From contig JAJRTR010000054.1 of NCBI GenBank assembly GCA_024278215.1, positions 1 to 19,593 on the forward strand: a stretch of 19,593 bases of DNA. Reading direction: 5' to 3'. The DNA is from a bacterium. Lineage in GTDB: Bacteria > UBP15 > UBA6099 > JAJRTR01. The notes below the pieces were generated by a model. The model did no database searches, had not been told where the DNA came from, and was given only the letters and a program-made list of their open reading frames with translations. Below, piece after piece: positions 4,508-19,530 of the stretch (position 1 is its first letter; each line of letters opens with the position of its first letter). The position numbers were made by a program, and so were the translations under genes.

Positions 4508-6181
4508 TCATTTAAAAATCATGATAACGGGAATTCCAGCCTTTTCCAATTTCTTTATCTGATTATAAATTTCGTATTCGCGTCTTATCGAGCACACAAT
4601 GACGGCATCGGGATGTAAAGTGGGAATCACATTCATCTGTATTACCTTGTGTCCCAGGAAATCACGGCCCTGTTTCTTGAGGTCGCCGTCGGCCACTCCA
4701 AGTATTTCTATGCCTTCGTCCATAAGAATTTTCATTACCACTCGTCCGAAATCACAGGCACCATAGCAGACAACACTGTAGATATTTCTCACAGCCTTTA
4801 TTTCCTTGACCCACGGGACCATCCGATCTTTATATTCTTCGTAAAGATTATCAAGCTTTGCCGCCAGGATTTTTTGTTCGTATTCTCTCATAAGATCATA
4901 GAGGGTCTCTTTATCCATGGCTCTGTTGAGATAGATGCCGTTATTTTTTTCACGCATCTCCAGCCATTCATCCAGTGATAGAAGATTATAGTTTCCTCCT
5001 CCGGTCCAGGTGTAATGACTCAGCTTGCTCCATTCCATATCATGTGAAACAATTCCCGCTGAAAGGGCAGCGTCCCATAGCTTTGTTCCAGGCAGAGGAC
5101 ACATAATATTGCACAGCGCTTCGGCAATCTTACCCTCGGCTATATGCTCGTAGATAAAGTCGAATGTCTCGCGTGCTTCGGCCTCCGTCTCTCCAGGCGA
5201 CCCGACTATATAAGTAGTGTGGACTACTATTCCATGCCTGTGCAGAGTATCCACGGCCTCCCGACAGCGGTCAACGGTCAATGTCGAACACTTCAGTTCT
5301 GTCAGCACTCTCTGATTCGCCGATTCAAGACCAAAGCTGACCTGTCTTATGCCGCCTTTTTTCAGGAGTTCGCAAAATTCATCGTCAATATAATCCGCCC
5401 TGACGTTGCAGATGAAACTTCGCTCCGTTGCCCATCCTTTTCTATGTATCTCCTCGACTATTTTCCTGAAACGTTTTCTGTCGGCGATAAACAAGTCGTC
5501 GCTGAAAGATATTATCCGCGATTCAGGGAATTTATTTATAATATGGGCAAGTTCATCAATAACGTAATCCGCCGAGAAAAACCTTGCATGTCCCCAGAAC
5601 TTCGATGAAGAACAGAAAATACAACGATATGGACATCCGCGCGAAGTAAAGAGATAAATAGACTGCCAGCTCTTTTTCGTTGTTTCACGATCCGGAAAAG
5701 GGAGTATATCCAGAGTTTTAAAAGGTTGCCTTGGAGTTGTCAGGCTTAGCTCTCCTCCTTTGCGCCTGAACACTATTCCGGGAATTCTCTCGAGGTCAGC
5801 CTCTTCGAGCGTTCCCGTTTTATTAAATGCATCGAGGAGTTCAAGGAATGTTTGTTCGCCTTCACCGATGACGCCGATGTCCATAGACGGCGCAAGCGTG
5901 TACGGAAGCAGGCTTATGTGAAATCCACCTATGACGACAGGCACTCCTGTTTTGCGTTTCACCGTGTCCGCAATATTTATAGCTGCACCGAAGTTCTGTG
6001 ACACACACGATAAACCTGCAATATCATAGCTGCATTCCCAGAGCAGTTGCGGGTCATCGATTATCTCGATATCATAACAGTTCCGATGTTGTTCAACGTA
6101 TGATTTCAGGTATCCCGGGCCGACCGGCATCAGTTGATCGAGGTCTTCACGTCCCACAACATTTAAAAGCGCAATTTTCAT
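4508..6181 (-). CDS. B12-binding-domain radical SAM protein with a C-terminal Rossmann-like domain
   Basis: A 557-residue protein. Residues about 1-135 form a cobalamin-binding-type Rossmann domain (MKIALLNVVG, DIAGLSCVSQNF, PVVIGGFHISLLP, GVIGEGEQTF). Residues about 175-385 form the radical SAM barrel with the [4Fe-4S] motif C183-x3-C187-x2-C190 in SRGCPYRCIFC. Residues about 468-557 form a third domain starting CYGACDFGR, like a small dinucleotide- or ligand-binding Rossmann fold. The family includes methyl-, cyclase- and other C-C-bond-forming enzymes; the substrate cannot be read. ATG at 6181 fits the canonical N-terminus, while the upstream in-frame TTG at 6232 would add a poorly conserved leader overlapping the previous gene. 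It lies 34 bp after the GT2 gene, whose C-terminus is the same third domain, so they probably act together. Confidence 0.88.
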   Translation of the reverse strand: MKIALLNVVGREDLDQLMPVGPGYLKSYVEQHRNCYDIEIIDDPQLLWECSYDIAGLSCVSQNFGAAINIADTVKRKTGVPVVIGGFHISLLPYTLAPSMDIGVIGEGEQTFLELLDAFNKTGTLEEADLERIPGIVFRRKGGELSLTTPRQPFKTLDILPFPDRETTKKSWQSIYLFTSRGCPYRCIFCSSSKFWGHARFFSADYVIDELAHIINKFPESRIISFSDDLFIADRKRFRKIVEEIHRKGWATERSFICNVRADYIDDEFCELLKKGGIRQVSFGLESANQRVLTELKCSTLTVDRCREAVDTLHRHGIVVHTTYIVGSPGETEAEARETFDFIYEHIAEGKIAEALCNIMCPLPGTKLWDAALSAGIVSHDMEWSKLSHYTWTGGGNYNLLSLDEWLEMREKNNGIYLNRAMDKETLYDLMREYEQKILAAKLDNLYEEYKDRMVPWVKEIKAVRNIYSVVCYGACDFGRVVMKILMDEGIEILGVADGDLKKQGRDFLGHKVIQMNVIPTLHPDAVIVCSIRREYEIYNQIKKLEKAGIPVIMIFK

Positions 6182-6215
6182 TTTGTTGTCCAGCGGATTT
6201 CGAGAACTGCGCAAT

Positions 6216-7481
6216 TCAATAATCGAACGCAATGTCGAAAACCGGCAAGTCCCCTTTATTGAACAATTCTATCGTCGATCGTATTTCATTAATAAAACCT
6301 GTCGAGCAAATTACGATTGCGTCGGCGTCGAGCATCTCGATGTTCACAGGCGGCTCTATAACGCGCCCCATGAATATTGAGCCCTGTTTTGCCGGGTTGG
6401 AATCAATAATCCCCGCGATACCCATACCGGTTTCTTCTGCGGCCCTGATTATTATCCTGCCCGACTCCGATGCGCCGAAGCAAATTATTCTTCTTATCCC
6501 CTTCGACCTCAAACCGCCCATCATGACATGTCCGACAAAATCCTTTAATAGTCTGACATTCTTTATATGCTCGGCGCAACTCATGAATTCTCTATGTATC
6601 GCATTTATGCCGGGGGTATCAGGCGACGTATCACGCGAGGTGAAAAAATCTGTATATTTCATCTTATGATCTTCTATGAATCTTCTGTCTTCTTCAATGA
6701 AAATATAGTCGTCGTTCTCGATAATATCCCGCCATTTAGAATAGAAATACGCCTTTCCTTTATCCATATTTTTCTTCATCTTTCTTTTATCCGCATTGAG
6801 TGTGATCGAACTGAAATGTTCTATCCTCGACCAAGGGCTGTATACTACCTTTTTCCCCGCGGCTCGCACTCTCAGGCAGATATCCACATCCTCATAACAA
6901 TTATCCAGGTTCTCATCAAAGTCACCTATAGCATGGAAAAAATTCTTTTCAATGCAAAGGCACACACCCGCAAGAGCCTGAAACTCGCGAACCCGGTTCA
7001 CTGCCGGCGCACGTGCATCAATATTCGAGTACAGCGGATAGTGATTCTTTTCGCGATCAAATACCATCCCGGCATACTGCACCCGCCCTCCACCTGGATA
7101 CAGTGACATGCAGCCCACAATGCCCACATTCTCAATTTGTTCATAAACATCGGTCAGACCCTCGATCCAGCCTTCTCCCGGTATCGTGTCATTGTTCAGA
7201 AAAACAAGAAATTCTCCTTTGCTGATTTTTGCACCCGCATTATTGCCCTTTGCATATCCCATGTTTTTGTTGAATCGAACGATGCGCATATTATCTCTTT
7301 CCGTCAACGTCTTCGTTTCATCGTCCGATCCGTTATCCACCAGTATGATCTCATAAGCGCCTTTCGTATTTCGCGCTATCGCGTCAAGACATCCGACTGT
7401 ATACTCATACTGGTTGTAGACCGGAATAATAATACTGCATCGCGGTGTCTGTATGGTGTCGATAATTCTTTCTTTCGTCAT
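6216..7481 (-). CDS. GT2 family glycosyltransferase with a C-terminal Rossmann-like domain
   Basis: A 421-residue protein. Residues about 14-240 are a GT-A fold family 2 domain: SIIIPVYN (16-23), VDNGS (48-52), NMGYAKGNNAG, the metal-binding-type LNND (95-98) and the acidic YEDVDICLR followed by the late HF. It should transfer a sugar from an activated donor to a glycan or other acceptor at the cytoplasmic face. Residues about 327-421 (ICFGASESGRIII, GIIDSNPAKQGS, DAIVICSTG) are a separate Rossmann-like domain closely similar to the tail of the next gene downstream. A linker of about 80 residues separates the two. ATG at 7481 has AAGG about 10 bases upstream. No membrane segment is visible. 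Confidence 0.9.
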   Translation of the reverse strand: MTKERIIDTIQTPRCSIIIPVYNQYEYTVGCLDAIARNTKGAYEIILVDNGSDDETKTLTERDNMRIVRFNKNMGYAKGNNAGAKISKGEFLVFLNNDTIPGEGWIEGLTDVYEQIENVGIVGCMSLYPGGGRVQYAGMVFDREKNHYPLYSNIDARAPAVNRVREFQALAGVCLCIEKNFFHAIGDFDENLDNCYEDVDICLRVRAAGKKVVYSPWSRIEHFSSITLNADKRKMKKNMDKGKAYFYSKWRDIIENDDYIFIEEDRRFIEDHKMKYTDFFTSRDTSPDTPGINAIHREFMSCAEHIKNVRLLKDFVGHVMMGGLRSKGIRRIICFGASESGRIIIRAAEETGMGIAGIIDSNPAKQGSIFMGRVIEPPVNIEMLDADAIVICSTGFINEIRSTIELFNKGDLPVFDIAFDY

Positions 7482-12429: not shown

Positions 12430-12603
12430 CACATATTTCACAAATGCGGGTTCAAAAACCGGAAGAACGCCTATAATGCAATGCGCGGCAAGTGAGTGGT
12501 GCGTGAGCATACTGAAAGTATGTGACCGATCCCGAATCGCCGTCGCAACGCAGTAAAATAGGCGTTATCCCGATTTTCCGGATTTCTTTGTGAGGAATCC
12601 GGG
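12430..12603 (+). repeat. Long hairpin-rich repeat, copy 2
   Basis: Same family and orientation as 10595-10789, but about 20 bp shorter. It begins CACATATTTCACAAATGCGGG and ends CCGGATTTCTTTGTGAGGAA. The central hairpin differs: GCATAC-TGAAA-GTATGT here against GCCGAC-CA-GTCGGC in the other copy, so the stem is kept while its sequence changes. It ends about 25 bp before the start of the radical SAM gene and so probably forms part of its leader RNA. Confidence 0.72.
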
Positions 12604-12628
12604 TCAGTTACCGGAACAGGGAAGGTTT

Positions 12629-14191
12629 ATGGAGAAGAAAAAACTGCTGATTGCATGCGCGCCGCAGGTAATGGTTTTTCGGGCGGCTGAAATGCTGTCC
12701 GTGCGTGAGTGTAACACTGCATACACGATTATAACCAGGGAAAATCGAGTCGACGAATCACGCGACCGCCTACCGGGATGGGAGATCATCACTTATGCTG
12801 GAGAATACCTGAACCCATGGACACTTTCGGATGAAACACTGCAAGCATGCCGGGCCGCAGCACGGGACGGGGTGTTTTTCGTGTGCAATAGTGATAATTG
12901 CAACGGATATCTTAATATTAACATCCTTGCGCATACGTTCAGTAGGAGTGTTGCGGCTGTTACACCATCCATGAAACTGATCATTCCCCGTTTACCCGAA
13001 ACGCTACAGGAAATGATTTCCCGTAATGATATGGAAAAAATCCGGTCATACGTGGAGTCGACTCCTGAATATATTCACATGAAACACGATATAGCCTCTG
13101 CTGTACGATCACCCACGACGATGGTGGGGCCTCGACATGTGCATCTCAGCGTGTCCACTGCATGTAATTATAAGTGTGTTATGTGCGCTTTTCATTCTCC
13201 GAGAAATAAACCCGGGGAAATATCCCCTGACTTTCAGATGCCACCAGGCTACAAGCGCGCGGAAGACTTGAAAAAGGTTGTTATGAATTTCGATGTTTTC
13301 AAAACCGTAGTCGACGACTTGCGTGATGTCGGCGGCGGAACAATCGTGTTTACAGGATTTGGCGAACCACTTTTGAACCCTCATATCTGTGAAATGATGC
13401 AATATGTTGCTGATAAAAATCTTGTTGCTAATGTTGTCACAAACGGTCGCCTTATGGACGTGGAAATAAGGGATACGATAGGTAGGACGGAAGTCCGTGT
13501 TGTACATATAAGTTTAAACTCAGCGTCACCCGCGACATACGCTCGCATTCATACAAATATGCCGGAAGAAGGATTCGACATTGTTGTTTCGAATATCGCG
13601 GGACTTGTGGAAGAAAAAAAGAAATGCGGAATAGGCCCTGATATAGGTATTTCCTTCGTGCTCAGCTCAATCAACATCCATGAAATAGGGGATATGCTGA
13701 AGCTTGGTTCTGAACTCGGTGTGGACTACATAGCACTTGTTCCGGTTTTTGTGTTTCCGGAAATCCGCGACCTCCTGCTCGAGTCCGGCGACATAGAACA
13801 AGTTCGGACCGAAGTTCGTGCTTTTGAGAAAGCTAATGATAGCAGGCCAAGAATAAATGTTGATTTTTCGATGTGGAACCCAGAACCTCTATCGACGAAG
13901 AATTTTCATTCAAAGGCGCCATGCTACATAGGATGGACTTTTACACAGATCACAAGCTGGGGCGATGTCAGGCCTTGTTGCTCTTGTTCAAGTGTAATGG
14001 GAAACGTACTGGAGGAGCCATTTGCAAAGATATGGAATAATGAAAAATACATTGAAATGAGAAAAAAAATGGCCGATCTGCCGACCCGGCGCAATCCTAT
14101 TGCTAATTGCGGTTGTTATAGTTGCGGACACATCCGGGAAAACAGCAACATACATTATGAGGTAACGGGGCAGAGAATAGAAAACGTATGA
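12629..14191 (+). CDS. Radical SAM protein with SPASM-like C-terminus and an unassigned N-terminal domain
   Basis: A 520-residue protein. The radical SAM [4Fe-4S] motif is C179-x3-C183-x2-C186 in STACNYKCVMC. A GGGTIVFTGFGEPLLNP stretch follows, the SAM-contacting GGEP-like motif. The C-terminal region has cysteines at about 432 (APCYIGW), 447-450 (RPCCSC), and CGCYSC near the end, with GNVLEE and IWNNEKYIEMRK between, typical of SPASM/twitch auxiliary iron-sulphur binding. The first 140 residues form an extra Rossmann-like region unrelated to the core family and distantly like the N-terminal domain of the two genes downstream. ATG at 12629 is preceded by AGGGAAGG. An earlier in-frame GTG at 12590 lies inside the repeat and is rejected. 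The stop overlaps the next start as ATGA. Substrate unknown. Confidence 0.88.
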   Translation: MEKKKLLIACAPQVMVFRAAEMLSVRECNTAYTIITRENRVDESRDRLPGWEIITYAGEYLNPWTLSDETLQACRAAARDGVFFVCNSDNCNGYLNINILAHTFSRSVAAVTPSMKLIIPRLPETLQEMISRNDMEKIRSYVESTPEYIHMKHDIASAVRSPTTMVGPRHVHLSVSTACNYKCVMCAFHSPRNKPGEISPDFQMPPGYKRAEDLKKVVMNFDVFKTVVDDLRDVGGGTIVFTGFGEPLLNPHICEMMQYVADKNLVANVVTNGRLMDVEIRDTIGRTEVRVVHISLNSASPATYARIHTNMPEEGFDIVVSNIAGLVEEKKKCGIGPDIGISFVLSSINIHEIGDMLKLGSELGVDYIALVPVFVFPEIRDLLLESGDIEQVRTEVRAFEKANDSRPRINVDFSMWNPEPLSTKNFHSKAPCYIGWTFTQITSWGDVRPCCSCSSVMGNVLEEPFAKIWNNEKYIEMRKKMADLPTRRNPIANCGCYSCGHIRENSNIHYEVTGQRIENV

Positions 14192-15654
14192 AAAAAGACA
14201 AAAACAGCTCGAAAAGCAAGTGGGATGACAACTGGGCGGATCGACAGACCACCTGTATTGATGGGGCAATTCCGTATGTAGCGGAAATTATCCAAGATTG
14301 GATTCGCGTCATCGAGGGGAAGAAAATCCTCGAGGCGGGCTGCGGCGCTGGACTGGACTCGGCGCAACTTGCTCTCTGGGGTGCCGATACACACCTCATG
14401 GACCTGAGTCCAGGTGCCGTGGAGCTATCTTCGGAAAACTATGAATTGAACAAGGCGAACGGCGCGTTTTATGTTGGAGATCTGCAAAACTTGCCTTTTG
14501 CGGATCGATCATTTGACATCGTGTTCAATCGTGGTGTTGTCGAGCATTTTCTCGACCCGGTTTCTGTGTTGCGTGAAATGGCACGTGTATCTTCCACTTG
14601 GGTGATTGTCTTCGTTCCTTTCCGTTTCTCGGCATATACTTTAAACAAAAGGTTCAAGCAACTATTCAGCAACTGGGCTTTCCCGTGGGAAACGGAATAT
14701 TCGCTTGATGAATTAAAGGAAATATGCAAAAAAGCCGGACTTGAAGTACTGGGACATCGAGGAGTGGCTTATGGAAATGACCTGAATTCTGTATGGAAAG
14801 CTCTCCGCGGAAAATCCAGCATGGTTCTCCAGGATATCAGGGAGTTTATGGAAGAAAATCTCCATGGTGTGGTTGAAATAGGAATTATCGCCCATCGGAC
14901 GAATACATTGCCGAACAGGAATACGTCCGTACCGTCTGATCTCTACGACAACGACTATTACCACGTTTGCGAAGGCTTCTCTAATCCGAAATCAAGAAGA
15001 ATATCCCGTGTCGAAGAACTCATGGATATCCGTGCCGGCCAGAAAATGCTGGACATCGGTTGCGGCAGGGGAGAACACCTGGCCTTTGCTATGGGAAAAG
15101 GCGCTTCGGTCGTAGGTATGGATTTTTCTTTTCAGTCATTGAGCTTGTCGAAAGACCGTCTTGGAAGCAATGCAGGGCTTGTCGCAGCCAACGCATTATC
15201 GCTGCCGTTCAAGGACGATTCATTCGACTTCATAATAATGATCGATATTGTTGAACACCTGCTTGACAAAGAGCTGGACCACATGTTTTCAGAAGTGCGG
15301 CGAGTGCTGAAACAAAATGGATCCGCACTTATCCACACAGCGCCCAACCGGCTGTTCATTGAAAAAGGCCATGATTTTCTACGGGGGCTCTCGATGCTGA
15401 TGTATGGGAAGTACATAAAAAAATATCCAAGGACAGTATACCTGGAGATGGTGCATGTGAACGAACAAACCCCCGACAGCCTGAAACACATGCTGGAGCC
15501 GTATTTCCATGCCGACGTTTTCGTCGAGCAGGGCGCAACAGGCTGCGGAGGGGACGAGCAATTTCAAAGCATGATCGAAACTCTATGCGGAATTCCGGTA
15601 TTGAAGAACTATTTTTGTGTGGACATCTTTGCCCGGTGCAGACCTATAAAATGA
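14188..15654 (+). CDS. Tandem two-domain SAM-dependent methyltransferase
   Basis: 488 residues with two complete class I methyltransferase domains. Domain 1 has KILEAGCGAGLDSAQLA (47-63), MDLSPGAVELS and NLPFADRSFDIVFNRGVVEH. Domain 2 has KMLDIGCGRGEHLAFAMG (GCGRGE near 291-296), VVGMDFS, LPFKDDSFDFIIMIDIVEH and a long C-terminal lid. Each is the size of a normal free-standing enzyme. Both keep motif I and the post-II acidic residue, so neither looks dead. The two domains are not close copies of each other, so this is more likely a fusion than a recent duplication. The start overlaps the radical SAM stop by 4 bp, which implies coupled translation and a shared pathway. Reaction and substrate cannot be read; sugar or lipid-linked glycan methylation fits the context. 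Confidence 0.9.
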   Translation: MKKDKNSSKSKWDDNWADRQTTCIDGAIPYVAEIIQDWIRVIEGKKILEAGCGAGLDSAQLALWGADTHLMDLSPGAVELSSENYELNKANGAFYVGDLQNLPFADRSFDIVFNRGVVEHFLDPVSVLREMARVSSTWVIVFVPFRFSAYTLNKRFKQLFSNWAFPWETEYSLDELKEICKKAGLEVLGHRGVAYGNDLNSVWKALRGKSSMVLQDIREFMEENLHGVVEIGIIAHRTNTLPNRNTSVPSDLYDNDYYHVCEGFSNPKSRRISRVEELMDIRAGQKMLDIGCGRGEHLAFAMGKGASVVGMDFSFQSLSLSKDRLGSNAGLVAANALSLPFKDDSFDFIIMIDIVEHLLDKELDHMFSEVRRVLKQNGSALIHTAPNRLFIEKGHDFLRGLSMLMYGKYIKKYPRTVYLEMVHVNEQTPDSLKHMLEPYFHADVFVEQGATGCGGDEQFQSMIETLCGIPVLKNYFCVDIFARCRPIK

Positions 15655-15776: not shown

Positions 15777-16337
15777 TTGATACTGATAATAAAAACAGCT
15801 CCAGATAAACACTTGCAAAAAGCACTGGCTCTTTTTGGCTCCGGTGAAAAAATATGTCTACTTGTTCAACCGTCTTCGAGGGAGAGAATCAGGAGTGAGT
15901 TCCCTAATTGTCGTATAATGCTTTTCCCCAGGGACGGAATGTTTGAAATATCTCATGTGACAGCAGATTTTATGAGAAACATGAGAAAAGAGAAATACAG
16001 CAAAGTCATATTGCTTTACAATACAAAAACCAGAATGTTCTATGATCATCTGGAGACACTGGCACGAGCATTTGATAGTCCGCAGGTTATAGGCATGTAT
16101 CCCGACGGCAGTACCGAGGATCTGGTCGCCACTCCGTTTGGAACAGCGAAATTGAAAGCCCAGGTAGCCGTTGGCCGGATTGGGATTAGCAGTAATGCTG
16201 GTCGGGTCATTTCCTCATTACTGACCTTCGCTTATTTGCATATTCATTTCAAGAGCATAGAATTTGTGGAATATCTTACGCGCCCGGTCGCCGATGTCGT
16301 CAGGCAACGCCACAAAAGCAGGGATAAAAAATATTGA
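15777..16337 (+). CDS. Uncharacterised protein: free-standing copy of the N-terminal domain of the next gene
   Basis: I do not recognise a named family. The 186 residues begin MILIIKTAP and align without gaps over about 112 residues with the N-terminus of the 936-residue protein that follows. By hand, about 43 positions are identical. Conserved points are LVQP (29-32), FPxDGMF (50-56), ILLYN (78-82), YxHLExLA (89-96) and QVxGxY. The alternating hydrophobic strands suggest a Rossmann-like or flavodoxin-like fold of about 110 residues. Residues 140-160 (GRVISSLLTFAYLHIHF) are hydrophobic and may be a membrane-associated helix, at the place where the paralogue has a clear membrane segment. The start is TTG with a strong ribosome site. 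The stop overlaps the next start as TTGA, so the two proteins are probably made together. Confidence 0.85.
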   Translation: MILIIKTAPDKHLQKALALFGSGEKICLLVQPSSRERIRSEFPNCRIMLFPRDGMFEISHVTADFMRNMRKEKYSKVILLYNTKTRMFYDHLETLARAFDSPQVIGMYPDGSTEDLVATPFGTAKLKAQVAVGRIGISSNAGRVISSLLTFAYLHIHFKSIEFVEYLTRPVADVVRQRHKSRDKKY

Positions 16338-19144
16338 TTCTCATCATCCGCAGCGGAACTCATGAACATTTCGAAACTGTTTATCGGGAACACCGTGAAC
16401 ACGGCCCGATTGCAGCTCTGGTGCAGCCTCAATTTGCAGAGCTCTACGCGGAACAGTATCCGGAGTGTGAAATATTCACTTTCCCCGAAGACGGTATGTT
16501 CAATATCGGAATGATCCGTCTGTCCTGGCTTCTCGCGCTGAGAAAGAAAAAATTCTCCGAGATCATCCTGCTCTACAATTCCCGGGACAAGAAGGGTTAT
16601 GAGCATTTGGAATTTCTTGCAATCGCGTTAGGCGGACGGCAAGTCACGGGTGTGTATCTCAATGGGGAAACAGAACATCTCCAGACATTCGTTCTTTTGC
16701 CTCTAATCCTCTATACGTTATGCATTCCTCTTTTATCGATCATTCCGTTTCTCATCACTCTGGCAGGTCTATTCCCCGGCGCCGTACACTCTAAACAGGA
16801 GTATTGCAGTCCGGTCGATACGTCCGGTATCAGCTTCCTGATTCCAAACTACAACGGGAAGCACCTTTTAAAGATGTTTCTTCCGAGTGTGCTGGAGGAG
16901 GCGCACAGGCAGGCCGCCGCGGGCCGGAGTGTTGAGGTCATTATAGTTGATGACGCCAGCACAGATGGAAGCAGGGAATTCATTGAAGAAGAATTTCCAA
17001 GCGTAAAGATTGTAGCACTGGCTGTGAACCGTGGTTTTCCGGGCGCGTGCAACAGCGGTATCGACGTCGCTCAATACGACCTGCTGCTATTGCTTAACAA
17101 TGACATTAAACTCGATCCCGGCGCAGTCGACGCACTTCTTCCGCATTTCAGCGATCCGGATGTATTCAGCGTATCGCCCCAGGTGCGCCGTCTCCACGAC
17201 AATAAGCCACTACACCTGCGCTCGGTCGCGTTCATGCAAAACGGAAAGTTCTGGTATACACATGATGACGACGATACGATTGTGCCGGGAGAACAATTCG
17301 TCTCCATCGGTTGCGCCTCGCTTATGGACTTGCGCAAAGTCAGGCTGATAGGCGGGTTCGACATTATGTACAGCCCCTTTTACGCGGAAGATACGGACTT
17401 GGGGTATCAGGCATTGAAACGTGGCTGGAGGATCCTTTACGAACCCAATGCCGTAGTGCTCCACGAAAGCCGCGCTACAATCGGCGTGCATTTTTCCGAT
17501 GAAAAGATTAAGACTGTCATCGAACGCAATCATATCCTTTTCGTATGGAAAAACATTCAGAATATCCGGTTTATCTGGAAGCACTTTTTGCGCACTCTGA
17601 GCGAGAGTCTTTTCCGATGGTCGCATGGAGACAAAACAAAAATACACGCATTGGCCGGTGCCGTGACGCATCTGCCCGCCGTGCTGAAGCGCCGCATTGC
17701 TTCCAATAGGCGACGCATAATTCCCGACTGGCGCATTTTCGAACGCACGCTAAAGAATAAGTATATTGCGAACTCGGAAACAGTGGCGCAGTTGCGCCGG
17801 AAACGGCTTGTCGACAATCCGCATAAGGTACTGCTGGTTCTACCGCGTGCCGACAAACTTTCGCCTTACATTCCCTCTTATGGGCTGGCTGCGCTGGCGA
17901 CCCTGCTTGCCGACAACGGCTTTACTGTGCGTGTCCTGGATTTCAATATCGCTCCGCAGATGCCGTCCCTTCATAGCGTAATACGTGAATTTCAACCAGA
18001 TGTCGTAGGGTTCTCCGGCTATACCAGCATGTGGCAACAGACATCAGAAATGATAGATTATGTCTATCACCTGGGAATCCCCGTGCTTGTCGGCGGCCCT
18101 CATGCAACACTTTGTGATGACAGTCTCCTTGACGACCACCGAATACAATATATTGTCAAAGGCGAAGCCGAAGATGTCATACTCTCCGTGATGCAGCGAT
18201 CATTCGATTTTACAAACCGCCCGGAGATAATCCAGGGCTATCCTGTGTCCCTGAAAAACCAACCAATCAACGATTATCGCATGTTCGTCAATCATGAAAA
18301 ACTATCCGTTTATCCTCTCCTGACCAGCCGGGGCTGCCCCCACAATTGCGCGTTCTGTGCTGTGGAGACCATTTCGTCACGCAAATGGCGGACCAGACCA
18401 CTCGAAAAATGTATACAGGAGTTGCACCTTGCACGCGAACGTTATCCTGCCGTTTCCAAGCTCGACATAATCGACAGCAGCCCCAGCCAGAACCTTCCGA
18501 GATTCAAGAATTTTATCCGCATGTTCCTTGATGAGCAGTTCCCGTGGTCGTTCTGGATTTCAAACATGAGAGCGGACAGAGTTGATGATGAACTCCTATA
18601 TCTTCTCAGGCGAGCAGGCTGCTTTCAGCTTTCCATCGGCGTGGAACACGGAGACCCGGAAGTATTCGACAGGATAGGCAAGGGTGAAACGCTCGACGAT
18701 ATCCGCCGCTCTGCAATCCTTATAAAACAACACGGCTTCAAGCTGGGCCTATGCTTCGTGGTCGGACTGCCGCACGATTCTATGCCCGCCACAATGAAGT
18801 CCATTGCCCTGGCGCGTGATCTTCAACCTGATTATATATTCTGGAACATGATGCACCCTTTCAAAGGGACGGCGGCTTATCGGTGGTTCGAACAGAATGG
18901 GACTTTCTACGATGTACCCGATTTTTCGTCGTATGATAATCTTTCTATCTATCCCATGGACCCATGCGTAGATTATCCGGGATTCACCAGAAAACAGATA
19001 AAAAAGGCGCACTTCATCGCAAAAATCCACACAGGAGCCTACCGCGTCCACGGTATTAGAGACAATGTTCGCCTGGTATTGACATCATTAAAATATGGGT
19101 GTCTTAAGTATCTCGTCCGGAATCGAAGAAAAGCAATGTTTTGA
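16334..19144 (+). CDS. Fusion: unknown N-domain, membrane segment, GT2 glycosyltransferase, B12-binding radical SAM
   Basis: 936 residues in one open frame. Residues 1-115 are the unknown domain shared with the preceding gene. Residues 118-148 are strongly hydrophobic. Residues about 165-410 are a GT2 domain: ISFLIPNYNG, VDDASTDGS (205-213), NRGFPGACNSG, LNNDI (255-259), GGFDIMYSPFYAEDTDLG and the late H377. Residues about 496-625 are a cobalamin-binding domain (KVLLVLPRAD, VVGFSGY, PVLVGGPHATL, KGEAED). Residues about 660-870 are a radical SAM barrel with C668-x3-C672-x2-C675 in SRGCPHNCAFC and IGVEHGDPEVF. All catalytic motifs look intact. Start is TTG at 16334 (AGGGA nine bases upstream), overlapping the previous stop. 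The usual arrangement is separate GT2 and radical SAM proteins, so this joint enzyme may modify the same glycan or lipid it glycosylates. That pairing is inference. Confidence 0.92.
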   Translation: MILIIRSGTHEHFETVYREHREHGPIAALVQPQFAELYAEQYPECEIFTFPEDGMFNIGMIRLSWLLALRKKKFSEIILLYNSRDKKGYEHLEFLAIALGGRQVTGVYLNGETEHLQTFVLLPLILYTLCIPLLSIIPFLITLAGLFPGAVHSKQEYCSPVDTSGISFLIPNYNGKHLLKMFLPSVLEEAHRQAAAGRSVEVIIVDDASTDGSREFIEEEFPSVKIVALAVNRGFPGACNSGIDVAQYDLLLLLNNDIKLDPGAVDALLPHFSDPDVFSVSPQVRRLHDNKPLHLRSVAFMQNGKFWYTHDDDDTIVPGEQFVSIGCASLMDLRKVRLIGGFDIMYSPFYAEDTDLGYQALKRGWRILYEPNAVVLHESRATIGVHFSDEKIKTVIERNHILFVWKNIQNIRFIWKHFLRTLSESLFRWSHGDKTKIHALAGAVTHLPAVLKRRIASNRRRIIPDWRIFERTLKNKYIANSETVAQLRRKRLVDNPHKVLLVLPRADKLSPYIPSYGLAALATLLADNGFTVRVLDFNIAPQMPSLHSVIREFQPDVVGFSGYTSMWQQTSEMIDYVYHLGIPVLVGGPHATLCDDSLLDDHRIQYIVKGEAEDVILSVMQRSFDFTNRPEIIQGYPVSLKNQPINDYRMFVNHEKLSVYPLLTSRGCPHNCAFCAVETISSRKWRTRPLEKCIQELHLARERYPAVSKLDIIDSSPSQNLPRFKNFIRMFLDEQFPWSFWISNMRADRVDDELLYLLRRAGCFQLSIGVEHGDPEVFDRIGKGETLDDIRRSAILIKQHGFKLGLCFVVGLPHDSMPATMKSIALARDLQPDYIFWNMMHPFKGTAAYRWFEQNGTFYDVPDFSSYDNLSIYPMDPCVDYPGFTRKQIKKAHFIAKIHTGAYRVHGIRDNVRLVLTSLKYGCLKYLVRNRRKAMF

Positions 19145-19235
19145 CACTGTTGATTCTCTCACATCCCGGGATGTTACGGCCCGTTACAAAAGTTGTGAGT
19201 TCGGAGAAAATTGACTTTCATCCGCATCATTGTTT

Positions 19236-19245
19236 AAGGAGGAGG
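19236..19245 (+). promoter_or_regulatory. Strong Shine-Dalgarno site fixing the start at 19255
   Basis: AAGGAGGAGG ends nine bases before ATG at 19255. It decides in favour of this start over TTG at 19141, which overlaps the previous stop and would add 38 residues that do not belong to the sulfotransferase fold. Confidence 0.75.
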
Positions 19246-19254
19246 TTCTCATTT

Positions 19255-19530
19255 ATGTCGGAAAGAACACCTTGTGAATCAAATATTCGTTTCAGTGATT
19301 CTCCAATTTTTATTGTCGCGGTATCCAGAACAGGCACTGAACTTGCTACGAACCTTGTTTCAATTCATCCCGTCGCAGTTGGTCTTCCTCACGAACCAAG
19401 GCCCATTTCAAATTTGATTGATTACGTAAAATATCTGAGGTTTATTTATAAGCTGGACAGTACCAAGTTTACCATCAAGCTGCAAGGCGAAAGTCAGGTA
19501 ATCTACCAGGGTCGGCGTTTTCGAGGATGA
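19255..19530 (+). CDS. Truncated sulfotransferase-like protein
   Basis: 91 residues from the ATG. SPIFIVAVSRTGTELATNL (about 16-34) followed by IHP and GLPHEP resembles the 5'-phosphosulfate-binding loop and following helix of bacterial sulfotransferases (typical form PIFIVGxPRSGTTLL...HP). S/T residues in the loop differ from the consensus. The usual length of such enzymes is about 250-300 residues. Here the frame ends at 19530, and the other two plus frames also stop at about 19533 and 19552, so a single frameshift does not restore it. It is either a decayed remnant or a short unrelated protein with a similar loop. The 3' phosphosulfate-binding part is missing, so I would not expect sulfotransferase activity. 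It follows the fusion gene on the same strand. Confidence 0.55.
   Translation: MSERTPCESNIRFSDSPIFIVAVSRTGTELATNLVSIHPVAVGLPHEPRPISNLIDYVKYLRFIYKLDSTKFTIKLQGESQVIYQGRRFRG

Follow-up and report, generated by a model that had tools for sequence, protein, structure and literature searches.

A GT2 glycosyltransferase and a B12-binding radical SAM enzyme fused in one reading frame among polysaccharide genes, with an N-terminal domain that recurs in glycan gene clusters

The window analysed here is a complete bacterial contig of 19,593 nt (C24), taken from a genome of 4.5 Mb that is 95% complete and assembled in 207 contigs. Located among polysaccharide genes, the locus of interest encodes a single protein in which an N-terminal domain, a hydrophobic segment, a GT2 glycosyltransferase, a linker, a B12-binding domain and a radical SAM core follow one another (Table 1). 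The initial annotation had described an uninterrupted frame of 936 codons, and this holds: there is no internal stop, and the longest stop-free run across 30 mononucleotide shuffles of the window reaches only 233 codons.

Table 1. Modules of the fusion protein and neighbouring genes, in window coordinates
Feature	Position (nt)	Strand	Remarks
Radical SAM/SPASM protein, 533 aa	12590-14191	+	N-domain match at residues 16-124 is weak (20 bits)
Protein of 488 aa with two class I SAM methyltransferase domains	14188-15654	+	
N-domain alone, 186 aa, paralogue of the fusion N-terminus	15777-16337	+	overlaps the fusion gene by TTGA
Fusion protein, 936 aa	16334-19144	+	
N-terminal domain, residues 1-117, GT9-N-like Rossmann	16334-16684	+	no Pfam match; structure via model of the upstream paralogue
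Hydrophobic membrane-type segment, residues 115-152	16676-16789	+	Kyte-Doolittle maximum 2.53
GT2 glycosyltransferase module, residues 162-430	16817-17623	+	DASTDGS, LNND, AEDTD
Extension at the GT2 C-terminus plus flexible linker, residues 431-496	17624-17821	+	
B12-binding domain, residues 497-616	17822-18181	+	PF02310
Radical SAM core, residues 655-860	18296-18913	+	Cx3Cx2C at 668-675 (nt 18335-18358)
Sulfotransferase-like fragment	19141-19530	+	Pfam match weak and under its cut-off (E 0.017)

The fusion gene starts with TTG rather than ATG. At each end it shares TTGA with the adjoining frame (16334/16337; 19141/19144), an overlap of the kind seen in ordinary operons. Third-codon-position G+C lies between 0.51 and 0.61 in every module up to residue 860 and is 0.61 over codons 400-500, the region of a suspected false join. 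The merging of two frames that had been feared near codons 410-496 finds no support there, with no stop and a steady codon composition across the linker.

All three catalytic or cofactor-related parts are recognised well above their Pfam cut-offs: Glycos_transf_2 (PF00535) at residues 167-297 with 69.7 bits (cut-off 23.3), B12-binding (PF02310) at 510-616 with 64.5 bits (cut-off 32.1), located before the radical SAM core, and Radical_SAM (PF04055) at 664-816 with 64.9 bits (cut-off 29.5). The cobalamin-type domain of the initial annotation is thereby recovered, and its motifs occur at the residues given, namely DASTDGS at 207-213, LNND at 254-257, AEDTD at 351-355 (EDTD 352-355) and C668-x3-C672-x2-C675. 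Kyte-Doolittle analysis returns one hydrophobic segment in the protein, at residues ~115-152, and the annotated membrane segment is retained as a predicted one.

Among aligned relatives of the GT2 module the nucleotide-sugar, metal and acidic catalytic motifs are largely conserved. The best-matching GT2 genes, from the same order and from other phyla, are 35-38% identical to it, and the nearest solved structures are polypeptide GalNAc-transferases, PcManGT and chondroitin polymerase. In a tree of GT2 sequences, which does not settle its placement, the fused module falls outside the clade linked to genes with radical SAM and N-domain parts.

The surrounding genes carry related modules. Counting the weak match in the 12590-14191 product, three copies of the N-domain occur in a row of four genes, and the second half of the 14188-15654 product resembles methyltransferases whose genes lie next to some unfused relatives of the radical SAM module. 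Downstream, the frame at 19141-19530 overlaps the fusion gene by TTGA and stops shortly before the contig end. On the opposite strand (-) the window holds another pair, a GT2 gene (6216-7481) overlapping a B12-radical-SAM gene (4508-6232) by 17 bases, whose products have C-terminal modules homologous to each other (31% identity, E 6e-16).

When GTDB genomes were scanned with the module's family, 12 close relatives of the radical SAM module came up at 33-41% identity, the next matches being below 30%. Their contigs carry the labels Deltaproteobacteria, Elusimicrobia, Omnitrophota, Abyssobacteria, Acidobacteria, Nitrospirae, Poribacteria, Rokuibacteriota, Sumerlaeota and DPANN archaea; the labels Woesearchaeota, Pacearchaeota and Nanoarchaeota belong to L066, L069 and L075. 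With those from two further genomes (G311 and G403) the standalone relatives, bacterial and DPANN archaeal, number 14. Their first residue corresponds approximately to residue 497 of the fusion. C668, C672 and C675 are invariant in 14 aligned family members, and the fused copy retains the family motifs Cx3Cx2C, GGPH and GEAE. Most of the 14 have glycosyltransferases, flippase-like proteins or methyltransferases nearby, and no N-domain was found near them.

None of these 14 relatives is fused to a GT2 (G403 was judged from a 480-aa open frame and L075 ends at the contig end). The fusion protein was also searched in ~420 genomes, and no second protein with GT2 and B12-radical-SAM parts is among the matches listed. 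Since that search reaches relatives of the fusion's own GT2 and radical SAM modules and lists the best-scoring matches, other fusions could exist. The phylum searches (G048, G311, G046, G040, G041, G069) cover small phyla, large phyla being sampled by one other search, and the collection holds seven genomes of the source phylum. Viral contigs and plasmids that were searched contain no such fusion, and no description of one was met by title or abstract in the literature searched, which lay mostly outside subscription journals.

Several candidates were examined and set aside. The full-length matches in G048 and G046 resolve into a GT2 gene and, directly after it, a B12-radical-SAM gene, with stop codons between, in keeping with the initial statement that the two kinds of gene occur elsewhere as separate neighbours. 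A long open frame on contig C1 of G048 is a GT4-like gene read in one with a radical SAM gene, not a fusion. Two large GT2 proteins from G041 (L032:1429-4917, 1162 aa) and G054 (L034:1175-3802, 875 aa), read from their sequences only, appear to have GT4-like parts, the former also a methyltransferase-like part, and no radical SAM match was seen in either. The protein described here is a real and so far singular joining of known enzyme families, set in a glycan context.

As to the chemistry, the radical SAM module stays below every NCBIfam cut-off listed: AprD4 (NF033070, equivalog) gives 53.1 against 500 bits, HpnJ 100.9 against 577.6, BchE 111.3 against 481.35, TIGR04295 41.8 against 400, TIGR04013 91.4 against 251 and TIGR04072 86.7 against 360. 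The nearest solved structures are AprD4 (Z 31.6 over 396 residues) and the methylase MgmA (Z 30.6), which at a difference of 1 are counted as tied, followed by CysS (Z 27.8), OxsB (26.9) and TsrM (24.9). The family profile reaches into the B12-domain regions of MgmA, TsrM, OxsB, TokK and CysS, in pieces for some of them, and also matches a corrinoid protein; its match to AprD4 is confined to the radical SAM core.

The N-terminal domain, initially called unknown, is indeed without a Pfam or NCBIfam match (residues 1-160 give no Pfam family at E up to 10) but can now be placed as a GT9-N-like Rossmann module. Residues 1-117 share 39% identity with the protein encoded immediately upstream, the model of which is confident over residues 1-110. 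Among glycosyltransferases that model fits WaaF (1psw) best, with Z 8.4 and an rmsd of 2.3 over 97 residues, and 3tov gives Z 8.1. A profile of nine N-domains matches GT9-like heptosyltransferases in hhalign at 96.4% (E 1e-9, 86 columns). For the model, CARF and other Rossmann folds reach scores similar to those of GT9, so that the choice cannot be made from fold scores alone; the sequence profiles point to GT9, and on that ground a CARF sensor was set aside. The typical G-D motif of GT9 is missing in the nine aligned N-domains, as it also is in 3 of the 8 GT9-like comparison proteins. The domain is probably a Rossmann domain remotely related to the N-terminal half of GT9.

This domain is not restricted to the fusion. 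At 17 mapped loci it occurs alone or with B12-radical-SAM, radical-SAM/SPASM, GT2, GT4, LicD or FkbM parts, being C-terminal on B12-radical-SAM proteins, before radical-SAM/SPASM, GT4 and FkbM, after LicD and on either side of GT2. Instances include N-domain plus FkbM methyltransferase at L148:1306-2745, N-domain plus LicD at L149:715-1950 and, in the fusion's own genome, another N-domain-only gene adjoining a GT4 gene (L182:6660-7226, -). A hydrophobic segment at the C-terminus is present in three N-domain-only proteins; by the same measure the one in the window lacks it. At 109-189 aa the N-domain-only proteins are too short to include the C-terminal donor-binding half of GT9.

The same module types also recur in another order. 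Four proteins of ~585 aa (L193, L194, L195 and L183), 44-75% identical among themselves and ~22% identical to the fused radical SAM part, join B12-radical-SAM to an N-domain. In at least three genomes (L193, L194, L195) their gene abuts or overlaps a GT2 gene, and in G035 (L013, L192) a GT2 frame lies at the equivalent place, overlapping by its longest possible start. Across several lineages, radical SAM enzymes and glycosyltransferases are linked by this recurrent N-domain, unnamed in Pfam and NCBIfam.

In the predicted structure of the fusion the two catalytic parts have high confidence (pLDDT mostly 90-98), the linker at 442-492 falls below 50 and the overall pTM is 0.56. Facing active sites, which had been raised as a possibility, are not seen, the linkers being flexible and with no sign of a fixed channel; the model fits a tethered two-activity protein. 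From the initial proposal of one membrane-bound enzyme that both extends and alters a glycan, the glycan context and the hydrophobic segment stand; facing active sites find no support in the model.

Our leading reading, held tentatively and at somewhat less than an even chance, is a membrane-tethered enzyme of two activities whose GT2 module would extend a lipid-linked surface glycan and whose B12-radical-SAM module would modify it, most likely by C-methylation. The N-domain and hydrophobic segment would hold the enzyme at the lipid-linked acceptor, the N-domain being proposed as the acceptor-side anchor on account of its likeness to the half of GT9 that binds the acceptor. The GT2 module would add a sugar from a nucleotide donor, and the B12-radical-SAM module would then act at an unactivated carbon of the added sugar or of the one next to it. 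Counting against this reading are the absence of an N-domain near the standalone relatives, a fused GT2 that is not placed with the clade linked to radical SAM and N-domain genes, the scores below all listed NCBIfam cut-offs, the flexible linkers and the remoteness of the GT9 similarity. While the glycan context is well supported, we infer cobalamin binding, methylation, membrane insertion, action on the same glycan and the role of the N-domain. Regarding the latter, we speculate, with considerable doubt, that it may be an unrecognised non-catalytic module for acceptor reading or docking by which radical SAM enzymes and glycosyltransferases are recruited to the same lipid-linked glycan, the fusion being the one-polypeptide version.

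The same tethered architecture could perform another radical reaction on the sugar, such as AprD4-like deoxygenation, epimerisation or oxidation, with cobalamin absent or structural. The top structural match by Z, which speaks against methylation, is AprD4 in complex with its substrate paromamine, a pseudodisaccharide, and AprD4 together with AprD3 carries out C3 deoxygenation of paromamine (PMC5461906). However, the Z-score tie with MgmA weakens this argument, PF02310 exceeds its cut-off, and the family profile covers the B12-domain regions of the methylases and OxsB and not that of AprD4. We regard a different reaction as unlikely but a serious contender and, because of where the profile enters the methylases, prefer with moderate confidence a probable C-methylation of a sugar in a lipid-linked glycan over deoxygenation.

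The two modules might instead act on different molecules, their reactions uncoupled, after loss of a stop codon fused co-transcribed genes. As GT2 and B12-radical-SAM genes neighbour each other elsewhere, one such loss would suffice; the fusion is known from one genome only among those searched and the linker is flexible in the model. Nevertheless, the modules on both sides are intact, and the same module types found fused, abutting and overlapping in another order elsewhere argue for a functional tie; we hold uncoupled modules to be improbable. Far less credible is an error of assembly or consensus that joined two separate genes. Continuity does rest on a single contig of one 207-contig assembly, as no other assembly was found to carry this fusion. 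But the linker shows neither a stop nor a shift in codon composition, no ATG occurs in codons 441-520, and TTGA overlaps are present at both gene ends; since standalone relatives start at ~497, an error would need to delete a stop and yet preserve the frame.

Radical SAM enzymes are common in the glycan gene clusters examined, many of them from uncultured phyla. The fusion suggests that one protein may both build and chemically alter a surface sugar chain, and, together with the alternative arrangement of these module types elsewhere, it gives a concrete reason to consider lipid-linked glycans as a radical SAM substrate. What is new is a fusion of known families; the recurrent unnamed N-domain is the more interesting part, and offers a way to track down more radical SAM enzymes of this type.

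Compared with known systems, the fusion has all three motifs in common with GT2 (PF00535) enzymes and adds an N-domain and hydrophobic segment before them and a B12-radical-SAM part after them. TIGR04295 (B12_rSAM_oligo), whose name presumably indicates an oligosaccharide setting, is likewise a B12-binding radical SAM family, for which the fused module scores far below the cut-off. AprD4 (PDB 6fd2), a radical SAM diol dehydratase, is the top solved fold, tied with MgmA, and its sequence match is limited to the core. With the class B, cobalamin-dependent enzymes GenK and GenD1 (PMC5461906) and MoeK5 (PMC8992657), which perform C-methylation in sugar pathways, the fusion shares the B12-binding plus radical SAM type and the sugar-pathway setting, a likeness of type rather than of direct sequence comparison, and differs in its attached GT2 and membrane-type segment. 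The N-domain resembles the N-terminal half of GT9 heptosyltransferases (WaaF 1psw, WaaC 2h1h, 3tov), the domain that in GT-B enzymes binds the acceptor (PMC8124905), but lacks their donor-binding half. Finally, the ~585-aa proteins contain the same module types as the fusion with the N-domain at the C-terminus and a different B12-radical-SAM family; given this and a fused GT2 that does not group with the GT2s of those loci, the tie between the module types rests on more than one family.
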